From a virus: DNA of 27,556 bases. The position numbers and the translations under genes are program-made. Each line of letters starts with the position of its first letter. Position 1 is the first letter of the stretch. Below the pieces are notes generated by a model that searched no databases, was not told the origin of the DNA, and was given only the letters and a program-made list of their open reading frames with translations. Shown here one piece after another: positions 2,186 to 20,600 of this stretch. Where the stretch lies: the IMG/VR virus record IMGVR_UViG_3300013286_000046, positions 1 to 27,556 of that record; one strand, written 5' to 3'.

Positions 2186-5100
2186 ATGAGCTCAACCGAT
2201 AGACAAAATAGACTGTTAATTAACCAGGATTGGACCAAAGTTTACCAGTCTTTCCGTAATGCGGACTTTCAAAGTTACGACTTTGAAAACTTACGCCGCA
2301 CTATGATTGACTATATCCGTCAAAATTTTCCTGAAGATTTCAACGATTATATTGAGTCAAGCGAGTACTTGGCCCTTATCGACCTCATTGCTTATATTGG
2401 TCAAAGCATAGCTTTCCGCGTTGATTTAAATGCCCGCGAAAACTTTTTAGAACTTGCTACCCGTAGGGATAGTGTACTAAGATTAGCAAGGCTTCTAGGC
2501 TATAATGCAAAGCGTAATATTCCTAGTAACGGTTTATTAAAATTTACAAACGTTACAACAACTGAAAATGTCATCGACAGCAACGGCCGCAACGTAGCCA
2601 ATCAAGTTATCACATGGAATGATACTACCAATAGCAATTGGTATGAACAATTTATTGGTGTTTTAAATGCGGCATTTAATACAACTCAGCAATTTGGAAA
2701 TCCTAGTGATAGTGCAACTATTAACGGAATTCCTAGTGAACAATATCGTTTTAACGCTAATAATACTAATGTTCCAGTTTTTGGATTTACTAAAACTGTA
2801 AACGGCACCAGTATGGATTTTGAAGTTACTAGTACTACATTTAGCAATCAAACATACATTTACGAAGAAGCACCAAGAATTGCTAATCCTATGGCATGTG
2901 TGTATAGAAATGACGGCCAAGGTAACGGCAGTGCAAACACTGGATTCTTTTTTAACTTTACTCAGGGTAATTTAAATCAAGGTACGTTTACTATTTCTCA
3001 ACCAACCACAAATCAAAGCATCGATTTCAATAGTTCAAACATTAATAATACAGACATCTGGTTGTATAAATTAGATGCCACTGGAGCAGAAGGTTCATTG
3101 TGGACACAGGTACCTGCATTAACGGGTAACAACATTATCTATAATAGTTTAAACAAGGCTATTAAAAATATTTATAGCGTAACAACAAAAGCCAGCGATC
3201 AGATTAGTATTAATTTTAGTGACGGCAATTTTGGAACATTACCGATTGGAACCTTTAGGTCATATTATAGAATTAGTAATGGAGAAACTTATACAATTAA
3301 TCCTCAAGATATAAGAGGTGTTACATTAAATATTCCTTACATTAGTTCTACTAATCAAACGCAAACATTAACTATCACATTAGAATTACCAACTGGTGTG
3401 TCGAATGCTAGTGCCAGTGAAACGAATGACGAAGTAAAACAAAATGCTCCTGCAACATACTACACTCAGAATCGTATGATTACTGGCGAAGATTACAATA
3501 TTAGCCCGTTGTCAGTTACTCAAGAGGTTGCAAAAGTAAAAGCAGTAAACCGTTCAAGTAGCGGAATAAGCCGATATTTTGATTTAGTCGATCCAACCGG
3601 AAAATATTCAAGTACAAATTTATTTGCCGACGATGGCGTTCTTTATCAACAAGATTTTAGTACAAATTTTAATTTTACTTATTCTAATAGAACACAAGCT
3701 TCTAATATAATTCACAATCAAATATTTGAAATATTAAATGATCCAAATCTACGCAATTTTTATTACAGCAAGTACAATGGAGTTAACACTACCAGTTTAG
3801 GAATTACATGGTATCAAAAATCATCAGATAGTAATTACTCAACTGGATATGTTGGAAGTTCAACGATTGATGGAAAGCCTTACCAAGTTGGCAGTACTAC
3901 CAGTACAGACTTACAGTTTTTAGTAGTAGGTTCACTGATTAAATTTGTTGCACCTACCGGAAAATATTTTAATCTTAATAATAAAAACGCATTAGTTACA
4001 GGTACTTCGACTACGTCAAATACCAGCACTTATATATGGACAGAAGTTACTGGTATAGTAGGCGACGGCACTGCTAGTGGTACTGGCGTTTTAACTACCG
4101 GGTTAGGTCCATTGTCGTTAAATGATATCATACCAACCGGTGCGTCGATTGCTCAAATTATTCCTGCTTGGAAAGTAATTATCAGCAGTAGTGTAATATC
4201 TACAATGATTGATCTAATAGCAAATAGTAGTCCGTTTGGATTACGTTACGATCTTGGCACACAAAGCTGGCAAATTGTTTTTCAATCTAATTTAAATTCA
4301 ATAGAACAGTTTAATTTAAATCACCAAGGCGATACTACCAATTTAAAATTAGACTCTAGCTGGTTATTATTATTTGTAACTGATACTATAACATACACTG
4401 TTACAACAAGAAAATTACAATATATTTTTGAAAGTAATGAACAGTTGCGTTTTTACTTTGATTCAACACAGCGTATCTATGATAGTACATTGAGACAGGT
4501 TGTCAACGACGAAGTTAAAATACTAGGAATCAATACACAACCGGGGAGTGTACAACCGTTTACATTTGATCAGCGGTTTAAAATTGTTTCAACTTTTGTT
4601 GGATTAGATGGATACATAGATACTAAAAAAATTATAATCACTTTTGGAGATAAGACTGGAACAGCAGTTGTACAAGATCCTGATGCATTTAATAATATTG
4701 TGTATAATAATGCTGTTCCTACCTATATTGTATTAAAATTATATACAGTTGAACAAGGGCAGCAAGATTACAAATATGTTGATAATACAAATGGTACGGT
4801 GTTGATATATGCTAATGCAAGCAAACTATCGGCTTATTCTAATTATACTGATGGACAGTATTTTTATTTTACTGATTCAGATACAGTTTTAAAATTAAAC
4901 CAAGCCACTAGTACATTAATACCAAGTCTGGATTATAGGGTGTTTATTGGCCGTGACAAATTAAAATTTCAATACACTCATAGTGCCGATAATCAAAGTC
5001 GTATCGATCCGGGTGTAAGTAATATTGTTGATATTTTTGTATTGACCAAGGGATATGATATTGTTTTTAGACAATGGTTATCAAATTCAATCACTACAAA

Positions 5101-5647
5101 ACCGTTACCTCCAAGCAGTGACGAGTTATATAATACAATAGCTCCTAGTTTAAATTTAATTAAATCTATCAGCGATGAAATTATATACCATCCAGTAAAA
5201 TATAAAATTTTATTTGGCACAAAAGCGGAATCGCAATACAAGGCACAATTTAAAGTTATTGTAAACCCAACAGTAGTTGTAAGTAACAACGACATCAAGA
5301 CTCAAATTCTTGCGGCAATTAATAAATTCTTTGAACTAGGCAATTTTGATTTTGGTGATACATTTTATTTTTCAGAACTAGCAACTTATGTTATGAATAT
5401 ATTGTCGCCAAACATTACTAATTTTGTAATCGTGCCTACAGGCAATACATTATCGTTTGGCGGCTTATTTGAAATTACAGCCGGGCCTGATGAAGTATTC
5501 ATTAGTGCCGCGACAGTAAACAACATAGATGTTGTAACAGCAATAACCCCAACAACAATTAACAGCCTTGGTAATGTAACATCTTCAACAAACGTGTTAT
5601 CTAATCAAGCATTAACAAGCTCAGCTTACGGATCAACTAATGTCTGA
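2186..5647 (+). CDS. 6: gp6-like baseplate wedge protein, long form
   Basis: 1153 residues, against 660 in T4 gp6. gp6 forms the inner ring that joins neighbouring wedges and holds the baseplate together. The N-terminal 110 residues carry the family signature: FENLRRTMIDYIRQNFPEDF, then YLALIDLIAYIGQSIAFRVD, then LNARENFLELATRRDSVLRL. A second conserved block lies at about residues 420-445 (YYTQNRMITGEDYNISP). The C-terminal alpha/beta region at about 1025-1075 (IKTQILAAINKFFELGNFDF) resembles the baseplate J/gp6 ending. The extra length lies in beta-rich, Asn/Ser/Thr-rich middle sections at about 115-420 and 470-1000; long gp6 forms are what I recall from marine T4-like phages. The stop overlaps the next start (ATGTCTGA, 5640-5647). 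Confidence 0.93.
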   Translation: MSSTDRQNRLLINQDWTKVYQSFRNADFQSYDFENLRRTMIDYIRQNFPEDFNDYIESSEYLALIDLIAYIGQSIAFRVDLNARENFLELATRRDSVLRLARLLGYNAKRNIPSNGLLKFTNVTTTENVIDSNGRNVANQVITWNDTTNSNWYEQFIGVLNAAFNTTQQFGNPSDSATINGIPSEQYRFNANNTNVPVFGFTKTVNGTSMDFEVTSTTFSNQTYIYEEAPRIANPMACVYRNDGQGNGSANTGFFFNFTQGNLNQGTFTISQPTTNQSIDFNSSNINNTDIWLYKLDATGAEGSLWTQVPALTGNNIIYNSLNKAIKNIYSVTTKASDQISINFSDGNFGTLPIGTFRSYYRISNGETYTINPQDIRGVTLNIPYISSTNQTQTLTITLELPTGVSNASASETNDEVKQNAPATYYTQNRMITGEDYNISPLSVTQEVAKVKAVNRSSSGISRYFDLVDPTGKYSSTNLFADDGVLYQQDFSTNFNFTYSNRTQASNIIHNQIFEILNDPNLRNFYYSKYNGVNTTSLGITWYQKSSDSNYSTGYVGSSTIDGKPYQVGSTTSTDLQFLVVGSLIKFVAPTGKYFNLNNKNALVTGTSTTSNTSTYIWTEVTGIVGDGTASGTGVLTTGLGPLSLNDIIPTGASIAQIIPAWKVIISSSVISTMIDLIANSSPFGLRYDLGTQSWQIVFQSNLNSIEQFNLNHQGDTTNLKLDSSWLLLFVTDTITYTVTTRKLQYIFESNEQLRFYFDSTQRIYDSTLRQVVNDEVKILGINTQPGSVQPFTFDQRFKIVSTFVGLDGYIDTKKIIITFGDKTGTAVVQDPDAFNNIVYNNAVPTYIVLKLYTVEQGQQDYKYVDNTNGTVLIYANASKLSAYSNYTDGQYFYFTDSDTVLKLNQATSTLIPSLDYRVFIGRDKLKFQYTHSADNQSRIDPGVSNIVDIFVLTKGYDIVFRQWLSNSITTKPLPPSSDELYNTIAPSLNLIKSISDEIIYHPVKYKILFGTKAESQYKAQFKVIVNPTVVVSNNDIKTQILAAINKFFELGNFDFGDTFYFSELATYVMNILSPNITNFVIVPTGNTLSFGGLFEITAGPDEVFISAATVNNIDVVTAITPTTINSLGNVTSSTNVLSNQALTSSAYGSTNV

Positions 5648-11600: not shown

Positions 11601-14600
11601 TTTTATCAAACAAATTGGAATGTTTTTAGATTTACTAATAGCTTTTTTAATATTTCTGATGTAGTGCAATCGTCGACATCGTTATTGATAGAATTAAAAG
11701 ATACGCCTGTGGGATTAAACGCCGGCGATTATCTAGGTATATCTCAAGTATCGTTCGCTGGTTTCTTTAAAATACTAAGCATATCAAAAAATATTATTAC
11801 GGTCGATGCACCAAATGTTAAATTAACTAGCAATTTCACTCAGCAATCTCAAGCTGTGCTATTTCTTCTGTTGCCGGCAAAGACATCTAATATAGATAAT
11901 GCTAACGAGTTGATCAAATCCTTTATAACACCCGGCGATAAAATTTGGACTGACAACGATGGTACTGATCGGTGGGCAACTTGGCAATTACAACGAGCCT
12001 ATACAAAAAATGAAATTACAAATCAAGATAATGTATTAACAGAATTTAAATATGCAACCGAATGGGCGCCAAACACAACCTATACACTAGGAAGACTTCT
12101 TAAACATACAACTGGAAATTTAACTTCTGATACGACCTTTGTAATTACTGGTAATGTTTCTCCAGATACATTTGATCCTGATAAAGATAACGGATTTAAT
12201 ACGTCTACTGGAATATCGGCAACAACTATAATTGGCACAGGAGCAGGAGCAAGTTTTAATATTATAAAACAAACTTTAAAAGTCCGTGATTCTTCTAATA
12301 ATGTAGCTAGCACAAAAGTTACATTAACTATCACAGTTGCTAATGGCGGAGATAATTACTCTCTTTACGATGTAATAAAAATCTCTATACCTGTATATAC
12401 TGGCGCTACTACTAATAGCAGTAATGATGTAACATTGGTTATAAGAACCTCAGTGAACCCAACTAATGTTCTTTACTATTATACAAATTATTGGTTCACA
12501 TCGGGGTCTACTTTCACTAGCAATGTTTCTTTATTGACTTATGGATTAGACAATACTGGCAATACAATAATTCTGACAAATGCTAATCAATCTAACGTTT
12601 TAGCAATAAAAAATATTACACCGGATTCATTATCATCTTTTGGGCAAGTGATTGCAGTTACAAAAGCCGGTAACTTGGCAGTAATATATACTGCAAAAGG
12701 CCATGTAGGAACTTACATTAAGGTCAGCGGATCACAACCCTGGGAATTAAATCAAGTAATTGTCCAGCCATTTATTGCACAATCGAGTCCACTAAACATA
12801 AACCCAAACAGCATAAGTACGTTTGGAGAATCTTTAGCAGTGACTAATGATGGATCGTATCTTGCTGTAGGAAGTCCTAATGCCGGATACGCCAGTGTTA
12901 AAACTGATAACAGTACTGGAAATAAGATTTGTGATTCGGCTGGTATAGCCTCGACTAACAATGCAACTGGAGCAATTAGTTTATACCAAAAAGATACCTT
13001 TGGAAATTATAATTTAATTTTTACTTTTGTAACAGGAAACGACAGGGCAGGCGAACATTTTGGCGGAACTCTTGCTTTTGGCAAAGACACATTATTTGCA
13101 TCGGCTCAGGCAGCTGATGGTAGTTCACGAGTTTATACGACTCGATTAATCAGCGACAAATGGATATTTAACGCCACACCGATTACCGCAGGTTCTTATT
13201 CTACTGATTTTGGTAAATTAATAGTTGTATCGGATGATAATTCAACTGTGGCGATTTCGAGTCCACGTACTGGATCGGTTTACATATACACGCTAGGAAT
13301 ATCTGGATCATATATTTTAAGTAAAACAATTACAGATCCTAACGCATTAGAATCTGTAAACAATTTTGGGTTGACAATTATTAATGGCGGCTTTGGTTTT
13401 AAAAATAAAATTACAGACGTATTCAGCAATCAGCTCCAAAATATTTCAACCATAAATGGTACTGGAAACGGATTAACATTTAATCTTGGCGTAGATACTA
13501 ATGGTGTTATGTCTTCGGTGATACCGCAAAACGTTGGGACAAATTATCAAAATAACGATCGGGTAACAGTTATAAATCCACTCGGAACAGGAGCAGTATT
13601 ACAAGCTACCATACTTTCAGGCGGCACTGGTTATACTACATCAACAAATGTTCCAGTTGGATATGCTCCGCAAGTTGCAACAGCTAGTACTGGATTAATA
13701 CAAGGAAATGTATTCATTCCTACTAGTACCCCATCCGGTACGTTTGTTAGCGGCATGGCTATTGCAGGAACTAATCTTCCTGCTAACACTTCAATTTCAA
13801 ATGTTGACACTGTTACTGTTACCGGAGTTACTATTTCAGGATTTAATTTAAGTGTCGGCGGGCAAACATCGTCAGCCAAGGGTAATTTAGCCATCGGTAT
13901 GGTAATTACAGGCCCTGGCATTTCTGACAATACATATATTACCGACCAACAATCAGGAACATGGCTTATTAATAACAGTAACAATGTGTCTAACATCACT
14001 GTTACTGGTAAAAAATACGATTTAAATAACGACTATACAATTCAGTATAAAGGATATGTAGTTGTTAATACGTTAACAGTACCAGTTGTAATTTCTCCAG
14101 ATACCAACGGCACGACTTCTACGTTATCGTTGACAGCTTTTCCAACTTCTCCAATTGTAGTTGGAACCCGCCTTACAGGAACTGGTACAGGAATCGCAAC
14201 AGTTTCAAACCCATTAGGTAATGTGGCAACTCAACAACAAGTAATTAGCACAGTTGGTACTATAACATTTCTTAACTCGACTGGCGGCAGCGGCCCGTTG
14301 AATACATTCACTACCTATACTAATATAACTGGAACAGCTCCTGTAGTAACTGCAACACAAACTAATACACAAACTTTTGTGTCAACATCGTCCATTAATG
14401 CAAACATATTGACTGTGGTATCAATAGCTTCGGGAACTATCGATATAGGATATGTATTAACAGGAACCAGTGTCATAGCTGGAACATATATTGTTTCTAA
14501 ATTATCAGGATCTGGTGCAGGATCTACTTGGATTGTTAGCCAGGAACATATTAATAGACAGTCGAATGCAGGCGATATCACGGGCACATTAAATTCCATT

Positions 14601-17600
14601 ACAGTCGGCAATACCAATACTATGATAGTGGGATTACCGATCGTGTTTGCAACATCATTTGGCGGAATTGTAGCGTCAACTACATATTATATTACAAAAT
14701 TAATAGATAATACTCATATCTCGATCGGAACAACGGTCGGCGCAACTTCTGATGTAGGATTAAGTATTGCAAATGGACTATCAACTTTTACAGTCAATGG
14801 TAGTCTAGTTCCGATAGTTGGAACTTATCAAGGAGTTACCCAGCGTTCTGGGTCTAGTACTTCCGGAACTGGTGCAACATTTATTGTTTCACGTTCCGGA
14901 CTAACACCGTTGTATTCAGATAATAATGCTACGGCTATTACTTTATTATCTCCAGGAACTGGTTATAAGATAGGAGACACGATTACTATTGGTGGAAATG
15001 CATTGGGCGGAGCTCTTACTACTAACGATTTAACGTTTACTATTAATCGTTCGATAAATGCTACAATGACTGCAAAAATTACAGGAATGACAGCATTTGC
15101 TAGCACAGCATTTCCAATAGGTGCATCGTTCACTGCACTAAATTTAACTGGGTTGTTATATCAGGATAATGCAACTTCAGTCACGGTTCTTGATTATATA
15201 GGACTTGACGGAAATCCAACAACTGCGGCTGGCACATATACTGGATTCCGATATTCGATAGTTGGCGGAAGTATACCAGTTAATGGAAATGTTGCCGACA
15301 TTACTACACAGAATATTGGAATACTTACTTATAATAATGTATCGCAATCGGCCACTTCTGGAACTGGAACTAATGCGGTATTTAATGTTTCAATCTCGGG
15401 AAACACAACTGTATACAAAAATTATACTACAATTACTGTTGTAAGTCAGGGCGGCCAGTATGCTGTTAATGACACCATTACAATACCAGGAACTAGCTTG
15501 GGCGGATCTAGCCCATTAAACGATTTACAATTTACTGTTGCGACCGCTCCAACATTACCTGAAGGCACGGTAGTTACTGCAAATATTGATGCAACCACAT
15601 GGACAATTAATAAAAGTTATTCATTAGGGACTACGGAATTTCCTGTTACAGTAACCGGATCGCAAACATTATTAACTGTAACTGGAATTAATACTGGAAC
15701 TATTAAAGCAGGCCAATATATTATTGGTGCCGGCGTTACATCTAGCACTACTATTTTATCCGGTAGCGGTAATTCTTGGTACTTGGATAAAAATTTCCAA
15801 GCAGGAACTGCTACAAATGCAATTCCTCTTATATCAGCTTATCCGGTAACGCAAGTTATTGGAAATATAACAGGAACACCGGGCTCAGGATTGACTGTTG
15901 ATATTACAGCATCTAGCGGAGTAGTTACATCGGTTAAAATAAATAATCCTGGCATTAATTATAATTCAACAGATCAGTTAGTAATTGTTAGCGGTAACAA
16001 TAATGCAAAAATTACTTCACAGTCTTCTTTAGTAATAACTTCGGGCACTCCTTATTTCGATCCTGTTACTAATCCTAATCCTGTATATGGATATTCTAGT
16101 TTAACAGCTCAATCTGGCGGCAAACTTGTATTAGATTTCTTACAAACTCCAGGTACATTTTTTATTGGGCAACAGCTCACTATCAGCGGTGGCATTAATG
16201 CTGGATCTGTTGGAAACATAACCGGATATACTAAAACATTAAACATCAATCCTAGCACAAGTAAAAATAATGGAGCTTTATATACTGTTTATGTAACAGC
16301 AGTTAGTACTATAAGTAATCCGTCGTATACCAACTCGGCTAAACAATCTACCATGTTGACTTTGAGTCTAACACCGGACGGCCCTGCGATTTCAGTAACA
16401 CCTGGTTTAATAAATTCATCCATTGATCCACTAATCATTACAGCATACTATCCAGGAGTTAGTTCAAATGGTATTGTTAAATTAACCAGTATTAATACAA
16501 CACAATCTACCAATACTGATTTTGGAGTTAGCGTGGATGTATCAAGCGACGGTGAATACCTTGCAATAGGATCTAATTTGTATTCTGAAGAATATACTAA
16601 TCAAGGAAAGGTGTCTATATTCCAGAAAGGAACATCATTATATACCTTATACCAAACACTATCCAGCCCAACTCCAATAGCTGGTGATTTCTTCGGATCT
16701 AAAATTGCGTTCATGAACGACTACAAAACGATTGTAGTTTACAGTGCCGGCTCCGGCAATTCAACAACATCTACTTTTGATACGGCTACAACAACATTTG
16801 ATTTGAATTCAATGTCTATCAAGGATAAAATTGTTTCCTCTGGAAAAGTAATTGTATTTGATAGATACAATACAACTTGGATTTGCGGTGAAGTTTTAGA
16901 TACTAACAACGGATCTTTAGACGGATATGGAGTTGGATTCGCGGTGGCTAACAATCGTATTATTATCGGGGCTCCTAATGCACTTGACGGTTTATTATTA
17001 TTGCCAACTGGTCGAGTATATGTTTATGAAAAATCTCCAAACACATACAGCTGGTTACCAATACAGAAACAAACTAATGTTCCAGATTTAAGAAAAATTA
17101 AAAAAGCATATTTGTATAATAGAGTCTCTTCAGTACTAATTAAACATTTAGATATTATTGATCCTTATTATGGATATATTGCAGGGCCTGCAGATCAGGA
17201 AATTAGTTTTAAAACTTTCTATGATCCTGCTATCTATTCATATTATAATACCACAGTTTATAATACAAACACATTGCCTGCTAATGTCGATGTTGGCCAA
17301 GCCTGGAATACACAATATGTTGGCAAATTATGGTGGGATTTAAGAACTGCTAAATTTGTCGATAATCATTCTTCGGATCTAGTCTATAGAAATAGCACAC
17401 TTAATACGCTGATTACTGGCGCAAGTATCGATGTATATGAATGGGTTGAAACCACGTATCTTCCAAGCCAGTGGGCTTCTCTTGCAGATACTGTGTCGGG
17501 CCTTTCGATAGGCATTAGCGGCAAACCGATTTATGGAGACAATATTTACAGCGCCAAGCAAGTGTATAATTCTTATACAGGTGCCATTGATAATACATAT

Positions 17601-20600
17601 TATTTCTGGGTCAAGAATACAATTATTAAACCAGAAATAATCACCAGAAAAATTAGTGCCGCATCGGTAGCAAATCTGATTAAAAATCCACGAGGTGACG
17701 GTTATTCTTTCTTAAGTTTAACAGGAACTGATTCGTTTAGTTTGTCTAATACTCAACATTTATTAAAAAATAAAGATGTGGTATTAGCTATTGAATATTG
17801 GAAAATAGACAATACTTCACAAAACATACATAATCAATGGAAATTAGTTAGCGATAATCCGGATACACAATTACCAGCATCTATTGAACAAAAATGGTTT
17901 GACAGCTTATGTGGGAAAGATCAAGCTGATCGCATTGTACCCGATTTAAATCAACCGCCTAAACTACGTTATGGAATTGAAAATCGTCCAAGACAAAGTA
18001 TGTTTGTTAATCGATTTGAAGCATTAAAACAATTTGTTGAACAAGTTAATTTAATGTTAATTAGTAATCCAATAGTGGAACAAAAACCTAACGGTTTAAC
18101 AGATTTAGAAAGCTATGATACTGAACCAACTGCGGTATCTGGATTATATGATACCACACAAGATACTAATGCTGAATTACAGTATGTAAGTGTAAATTAT
18201 ATTAAAACACCAACAATTTTACCAATTATTTTAAATGGTATAATCACAGGTATTAATATTGTTAATGCAGGATCTGGATATCTAGTAGCACCAACTGTTA
18301 CTATAAGTGGCGTTGGTAGAGATGCAAAAATTCTACTGTCTATTAACTCTACCGGAGAAATCACCGGAGCAACTATTAGCTCGGGAGGAAAAGGATATGT
18401 TGATACATCTACTATTATAACTGTTCGACCATTTAGTGTTTTAGTACATCAAGACGCCGATGCTAACAAAAATTGGAGTATCTATGGATACGATCCTATT
18501 AAGAAATCTTGGAATAGAACACGTACTCAGAATTTTGATGTTCGTATTTTCTGGACTAAAGTTGATTGGTATGGATCAGTTGCTAATAACACCACAGGTA
18601 TAACACAAACATATAATCAATATAGCATCATTGATTTTGCAGTTGACACTTACAGTGATTTAAATTCTATAGATCCTGCGATAGGGCAAACTGTGAAAGT
18701 CCGTACTACGGGCAAAGGCGGCTGGCAATTATTGCGTTGTATTGCTCCAAGCATAAGCACAGACTGGACACAAAGTTATCAAGTTGTGGGCATCGAAAAC
18801 GGTACAATACAATTAAGCAATAGTTTATATAATTATACCCAGAACAAAGTTGGATACGATGGATTTTTGTATGATAATGCTGGCTACGATTTTAGCGCAT
18901 CCAAAGAACTACGTATTATACTTAATGCATTAAAAGATAAAATATTAACAGATACTCTACGAAAGGATTATCTAGATTTATTCTTCGCCAGCATACGATA
19001 TGCATTTACTGAACAAACATATATTGATTGGGCTTTTAAAACTAGTTTTGTACAAGCTCAACATAATCTGGGACGGTTAAAACAAACTGTAGTTTATGCA
19101 AATGACAATCTGGTTGATTTTCAAAATTATGTAAATGAAGTAACTCCTTATAGAACTACTGTAAGAGAATATGTGGACAACTACGAAGCGATCGATACTA
19201 GTGCTAGCATGATGAGTGACTTCGATTTGCCAGTGACCTATTCCTTAACTGGAAATCGGGTTATTGACACTAGGATCGAAAACGGAAAATTGTTTGCAAA
19301 TGATTTAACTACATTACAAACTTATCCTTGGAAAAACTGGAACGATAATTTAGGATTTATCTTAGAAGATATTGCTATAATTTCAGGAGGATCGGGATAT
19401 CTTTCAGCACCAGAAGTTATTATACAAAGCAAATCTGGAACTGGCGCAGTGGCAAAAGCATTTATTGCCAACGGTTCTGTAAACAGAATTGTAATTTTAA
19501 AGAACGGTTCTGGTTATTTGGAAGCTCCGACTATAATATTAAATGGCGGCTTACCACATAAATCAACTACGGGTGCTCGTGTAACTGCAATTATTGGTAG
19601 GAGTATAATTAGATCTAGTTTAATTAAAATGAAATTTGACAGAGTTAATCAAAAATATTTTGCAATTAAATTAGATCAAACAGAAACATTTACGGGTACA
19701 GGCGGGCAAATACAATTTCCGCTGTTGTGGGCACCCGATATAAAGATTGGTCAAAGTACCGTTACAGTTGATAATCTAATACAACTACGCGAAACATATT
19801 CATTATCGATTAAAAAATCAACTACAGCCGGATACACACAATATTCAGGTGTAATTACATTTAACAATGCTCCGGCTAAAGGAAAAACGATTGTTGTAAG
19901 TTATATCAAAGATATTTCTTTATTAGAAGCGCAAGATCGTATACAATTCTTTTATGATCCTGGAGTTGGCTCGCTAGGAAAAGATTTATCACAATTAATG
20001 ACAGGTGTTGATTACGGCGGCGTACAACTTGTCGGAATAGGATACGATGCTCCTCGAGGTTGGGGAAGCACTGGATTCATGAATGATTTATGGGATTCTT
20101 ACGAAGAAACTTATAGTAATTATGCCATTGCAGTTACTCCAGAAACAATAGCATCCCCGGTATTTACATTACCATATACTCCTCCCGTATATACTAATTT
20201 AAACATTTATTATACCGAACGGTTATTTAAAACTTATATTTCTGACGGAACAACTACAATTTATCAAGGAAATCCGTATTTTAATCAACTAGTAGTATCG
20301 GCAACTATCAGTAAAAAGATTCAAAACGTTTCAACAACTGCAACTAGTACATCTTCGGTTACAGTTACAGTTACTGGAACCCGTGCAGTTTACAACTATC
20401 TATACGGCCCAACTAATAATTTGACAGTAGGGAAACCAGTAAAATTTATTTCAGCAGTTGTTGGCGGCTTAGTACTAAATCAAACTTACTACATTAAGAG
20501 TATTATAGATAGTAATACATTCACAATTACTTCTGCTATAGTAAACGGCCAACCGGATGTTACAACTAGTGTAACAACACAAAGTGTAGCAACAATGAGT

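Follow-up and report, generated by a model that had tools for sequence, protein, structure and literature searches.

A giant baseplate protein of an uncultured jumbo myophage contains a seven-bladed FG-GAP propeller split by a chain of beta modules

The 27,556-base stretch of viral DNA analyzed here (the window) encodes a protein in which a series of FG-type motifs is interrupted. Motifs at residues 2334, 2395, 2474 and 2524 mark four blades of an FG-GAP beta-propeller and are followed by F2576; about 1,050 residues later the series resumes at 3628, 3685 and Y3763. A preliminary description took F2576 for a broken blade, a scar left when an insert duplicated the start of a blade or cut one. 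We found that the split propeller is real and that the propeller itself is intact and ordinary, with seven blades. The best reading, to which we give a probability of about 0.72, is one ordinary seven-bladed FG-GAP propeller whose D4-A5 loop holds a once-gained chain of swappable beta modules.

The giant ORF is a single uninterrupted frame of 6,436 amino acids and holds the place of T4 gp7 in the gene order, after the hub, gp25-like and gp6-like genes (Table 1). The phrog_10938 profile matches it with E = 2.9e-224, with the best stretch at residues 689-1556 in the N-terminal core and additional matches downstream of the propeller. The core also matches virion proteins of the jumbo phages PA5oct, Atu_ph07, Phosso, SCTP-2, RaK2 and CBB, and the record of the PA5oct homolog bears the note ESI-MS/MS. 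The comparison with gp7 covered the family's N-terminal 1,907 residues and detected no similarity (hhalign probability 0.1%), and no solved structure matched these 1,907 residues by sequence. The phage of the window is an uncultured jumbo myophage, and the product of the giant ORF is a tail-baseplate protein. The ORF that follows it matches tail and head-fibre families and, below threshold, a carbohydrate-binding module.

Table 1 Features of the window and of the giant ORF.
Feature	Residues	Positions	Strand
Window, IMG/VR virus record		27,556 bases	
Baseplate hub protein		130-1686	
gp25-like wedge protein		1689-2138	
gp6-like wedge protein		2186-5647	
Giant ORF, baseplate/virion structural protein, phrog_10938 family	6,436 aa	5640-24950	+
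Conserved core strand GDKIWTDNDGTDRWATW, immediately upstream of propeller in relatives	2099-2129	11934..12026	+
Extra insert of ~190 aa between core strand and blade 1; weak GGxGY module match at 2222-2266	2130-2322	12027..12605	+
Blade 1	2334 on	12639..12821	+
Blade 2	2395 on	12822..13058	+
Blade 3	2474 on	13059..13208	+
Blade 4, complete, fourth strand SYILSKTI	2524-2566	13209..13337	+
Insert of ~1,050 residues, D4-A5 interblade loop	about 2572-3620	13353..16499	+
First insert module, GGxGY/F type, spans the "broken blade" sequence	2577-2656	13368..13607	+
VGM-type beta repeat	2730-2791	13827..14012	+
VGM-type beta repeat	2917-2983	14388..14588	+
VGM-type beta repeat	3338-3395	15651..15824	+
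Second-half GGxGY module	3411-3458	15870..16013	+
Blade 5	3628 on	16521..16691	+
Blade 6	3685 on	16692..16925	+
Blade 7, C-terminal end of propeller	3763 on	16926..17078	+
Conserved core after propeller, common to PA5oct, SCTP-2, Atu_ph07 and Phosso	3815-4140	17082..18059	+
Further tail protein	860 aa	24956-27538	

For a blade profile, 419 blade starts were taken from relatives, with the window and L006-L008 left out. Among the 6,436 positions of the ORF, ranks 1-7 fell to the seven complete blades (2334, 2395, 2474, 2524, 3628, 3685 and 3763). A propeller profile matched the left half with E = 2e-39 and the right half with E = 1.5e-67, and FG-GAP_2 (PF14312) matched the right half (residues 3621-3830) with 30.8 bits against a Pfam cut-off of 23; several relatives reached 24-54 bits. 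The earlier proposal of an FG-GAP propeller in two pieces, with four and three complete blades summing to seven, is borne out, as is the excursion of ~100 kDa between the halves; a single open frame spans both. Read by eye, the A-B turns of blades 1-7 are VTKAGN, VTNDGS, FGKDT, VSDDNS, VSSDGE, FMNDYK and VANNR, and the DxDxDG calcium loop is absent from all seven. This motif is typical of the A-B turns of several integrin blades; the FG-GAP_2 family does not require it.

Uninterrupted relatives indicate how the two halves belong together. The left half, used as a single-protein query against IMG/VR, gave no match, and neither did its tblastn search against named phages; tblastn of the right half found one weak match only, in Phosso. 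The conserved core downstream of the propeller was used to retrieve 80 related IMG/VR loci. Blade 4 directly adjoins blade 5 in 71 of the 79 assessable loci; in these counts a few contigs are nearly identical and about ten loci are distant and align less well. Measured from just upstream of the start of blade 4 until the first strand of blade 5 ends, these 71 loci span 52-89 aa. F2576 and F3628 of the window both correspond to one and the same FG in compact relatives, L034, L066 and L060 among them, and seven blades are visible in an alignment of twelve compact relatives; no uninterrupted relative with eight blades occurred.

The ring was modeled on a natural uninterrupted relative instead of an artificial join of the window's halves. 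AlphaFold2 predicted a seven-bladed ring for L066 with 26 aligned relatives (mean pLDDT 88.5, pTM 0.88). Four strands are clear in each of six blades and three in the last, whose end is of low confidence. A Foldseek search of this propeller against the PDB was led by integrin alpha5, alphaV and G-beta propellers, all of them seven-bladed, with integrin alpha on top, and FG-GAP proteins were among the leading matches to viral models. By homology, the halves in the window would close as one seven-bladed ring. The propeller fold was also matched by a stand-alone 393-residue protein of Atu_ph07 named hemagglutinin (A0A2L0UZX4).

The supposed broken blade ranks far below the seven complete ones. 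With the blade profile F2576 ranks 85th on the first strand and 321st on two strands of the 6,436 positions, and 57 positions outside the propeller equal or beat it on the first strand. The giant ORF contains 25 FG dipeptides where 22.9 are expected. All four insert-bearing relatives (L006, L007, L008 and L089) have F-N in place of the window's F-G at 2576-2577. The sequence from residue 2577 on, GLTIINGGFGF, resembles GLTITNGGQGY in L092 and LSVINGGSGF in L095, which are unrelated phage proteins. With a six-segment profile of this GGxGY/F module, no part of the ORF scored higher than residues 2577-2656 (34.4 bits), the alignment starting at G2577. This score is somewhat circular because resemblance to the same part of the window was what brought up the six segments; the tandem copies of the module in unrelated proteins are not touched by that circularity. 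A low-confidence model of residues 2505-3704, of poor quality within the insert (mean pLDDT 40.6) and drawn on for blades 4 and 5 only, gives blade 4 four strands and places no blade strand in 2567-2603, and its next sheet starts at 2610. Judged from these sequence comparisons, F2576 belongs to the first insert module and not to a blade, and the propeller is therefore intact.

We consider it highly improbable that F2576 is a true scar, the decayed copy of a blade 5 start that arose by duplication on arrival of the insert. All five insert-bearing sequences do keep the phenylalanine, and the FG stands at the spacing expected of a next blade, for which the chance is about one in ten. Moreover, the propeller profile extends to residue 2580 on the left and starts at 3609 on the right, so that the flanks overlap in profile terms and its D4-A5 columns align to both. 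Against this, the glycine is N in every insert-bearing relative, the blade-profile ranks are low, and the sequence from 2577 matches a free-standing module. No significant repeat links the two flanks (DNA p = 0.78; protein p = 0.08), and the F3628 flank gives the segment no higher score than other blades do. Neither a broken blade nor a duplicated blade start is upheld by these results, and the suggestion that the insert cut a blade also fails, as it sits in a loop, beyond the last of the four strands of blade 4.

The insert is not an assembly artefact because the four other IMG/VR contigs have one at the same place, where it measures 840-890 residues against about 1,050 in the window. The five carriers form one clade with 100/100 support in a tree built from the neighbouring region downstream of the propeller, and the insert needs one change as a character. 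Since it is confined to this clade, it was probably gained once, as a single derived gain. Both edges of the insert align across the window and the four relatives, whereas the interior does not; the compact relatives entered this alignment as right-hand pieces only, as their whole sequences were misplaced inside the insert. A different site is conceivable, in which the insert would occupy the C4-D4 hairpin and residues 3610-3620 would serve as D4. An insert at that hairpin does exist in L022-L025, and for the window and L007 the gap is divided ambiguously in a gap-tolerant alignment. However, a canonical D4 motif stands on the left side (YxLxQTIxG in relatives, SYILSKTI in the window) and is modeled as a strand beside C4, which makes the hairpin site improbable and favors D4-A5.

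Within its conserved edges the D4-A5 insert is a chain of small modules. VGM-type repeats number three in the window and six in each of L006-L008, and the six-segment profile finds GGxGY/F copies elsewhere in the ORF, for example at residues 4576-4634. Cyanophage proteins, among them one annotated as a baseplate wedge subunit (MED4-213), share the module at about residues 3241-3300. No Pfam family scored above noise in the window's insert. A weak CBM_5_12-like match, below Pfam's cut-off, follows the first module in L006, L008 and L089 and was not seen in the window's insert. The interior modules were replaced or multiplied after the insert had been gained. Two modules have the form GxGYxxGDTITIxGxxLGGxxxxNDLxFTV and lie at approximately 14847-15059 and 15348-15539; the second is the one that resembles cyanophage proteins.

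A less likely but credible alternative holds that the inserted chain only fills space or sets a distance and binds nothing, and that modules come and go by nearly neutral repeat turnover. The repeats are rich in T, S and G, the length of the insert varies widely among relatives, and the lack of a Pfam family in the window's insert points the same way. The insert edges conserved across the clade and the modules shared with other phage proteins speak against it, although both are compatible with a spacer too.

The D4-A5 loop is one of several places in this propeller region that accept inserts. In 62 distinct well-aligned loci, inserts of at least 30 residues lie at about ten loops, namely D1-A2, blade 2 B-C, blade 3 C-D, D3-A4, blade 4 B-C, blade 4 C-D, D4-A5, D5-A6, blade 6 B-C and D6-A7; for L006-L008 and L022-L025, the blade 4 sites come from inspection of the alignments. 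In a propeller, the D-A and B-C loops lie on one common face. Eight of the ten sites are D-A or B-C loops, which with so few sites amounts to no more than a tendency, and blade 3 C-D, where inserts are commonest, is on the opposite face. An insert of about 70 residues at blade 3 C-D recurs in about 50 relatives (L009-L076), appears VGM-like by eye and is missing from the window. The window in turn has the insert of ~190 aa between the core strand and blade 1 (Table 1), which is absent in most relatives checked, where these two elements adjoin. Short propeller-region inserts in L060, L031, L033, L037 and L035, mostly near blade 2 B-C, gave CBM_5_12-like matches with E values from 1e-4 to 1e-2, below Pfam's cut-off.

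In our preferred reading, the D4-A5 loop of the window's lineage would have received a chain of small beta modules while the ring closes as though the insert were absent. From such a closure it follows that the chain would exit as an arm from the face with the D-A and B-C loops. This projecting chain may have an adhesive or arm function. The propeller might then serve the baseplate as a scaffold for display. Its loop inserts would be exchangeable modules that act as spacers or bind surfaces, in a position like that of the alpha-I domain of integrins. Binding of a host surface by the giant-ORF protein is putative; relatives show weak CBM_5_12-like matches. A broader and rather doubtful proposal is that the baseplate propeller is a general platform for module display. 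Lineages would independently plug beta modules into differing loops, mostly on one face, and would so retune surface contacts with the baseplate core unchanged, so that phages would have their own equivalent of the alpha-I arrangement in integrins.

With dozens of uninterrupted homologs and one derived gain, the locus offers a clean case of ~1,000 residues inserted into a beta-propeller. The architecture is nested, the core holding the propeller and the propeller the module chain. The relatives provide a set for linking loop positions of a baseplate propeller to host contact. The point of interest is how freely beta modules are swapped into propeller loops, and not a broken blade.

The split propeller is a known kind of architecture of unusual size and in an unusual setting; in a narrow search of the open literature, no description of a phage protein of this kind came up. 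The closest comparison is the integrin alpha chain with an alpha-I domain, in which a whole domain likewise lies between two consecutive blades of a seven-bladed FG-GAP fold. In the window, however, the insert lies between blades 4 and 5, is about five times longer, forms a chain of beta modules instead of one alpha-I domain and belongs to a phage baseplate protein, and the blades lack visible classical DxDxDG calcium loops. An alpha-I (von Willebrand A) domain as the insert was ruled out, as no Pfam family scored above noise. The propeller of the window may work like that of an integrin but is not one.

Among phages, the phrog_10938 proteins of PA5oct (gp355), Atu_ph07 (gp180), Phosso and SCTP-2 share the homologous core on either side of the propeller. 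Unlike the window, they carry other sequence of 320-1,530 aa at the matching place, where no FG-GAP propeller was detected. In Atu_ph07 and Phosso this place holds about 1,520 residues that by eye are rich in GGxGY-type repeats (L003 9810-14369; corresponding part of L005). A LamG-like domain suspected by eye at the equivalent site of SCTP-2 was dropped after Pfam found nothing. The gene of T4 gp7 directly follows gp6 in the baseplate cluster, as the giant ORF follows its gp6-like gene, but the giant ORF is six times longer and has no detectable similarity to gp7 over the family's first 1,907 residues. Finally, the phage proteins L090-L096 contain GGxGY/F and VGM-type beta modules of the same kinds as the insert, which in the window are plugged into a propeller loop.
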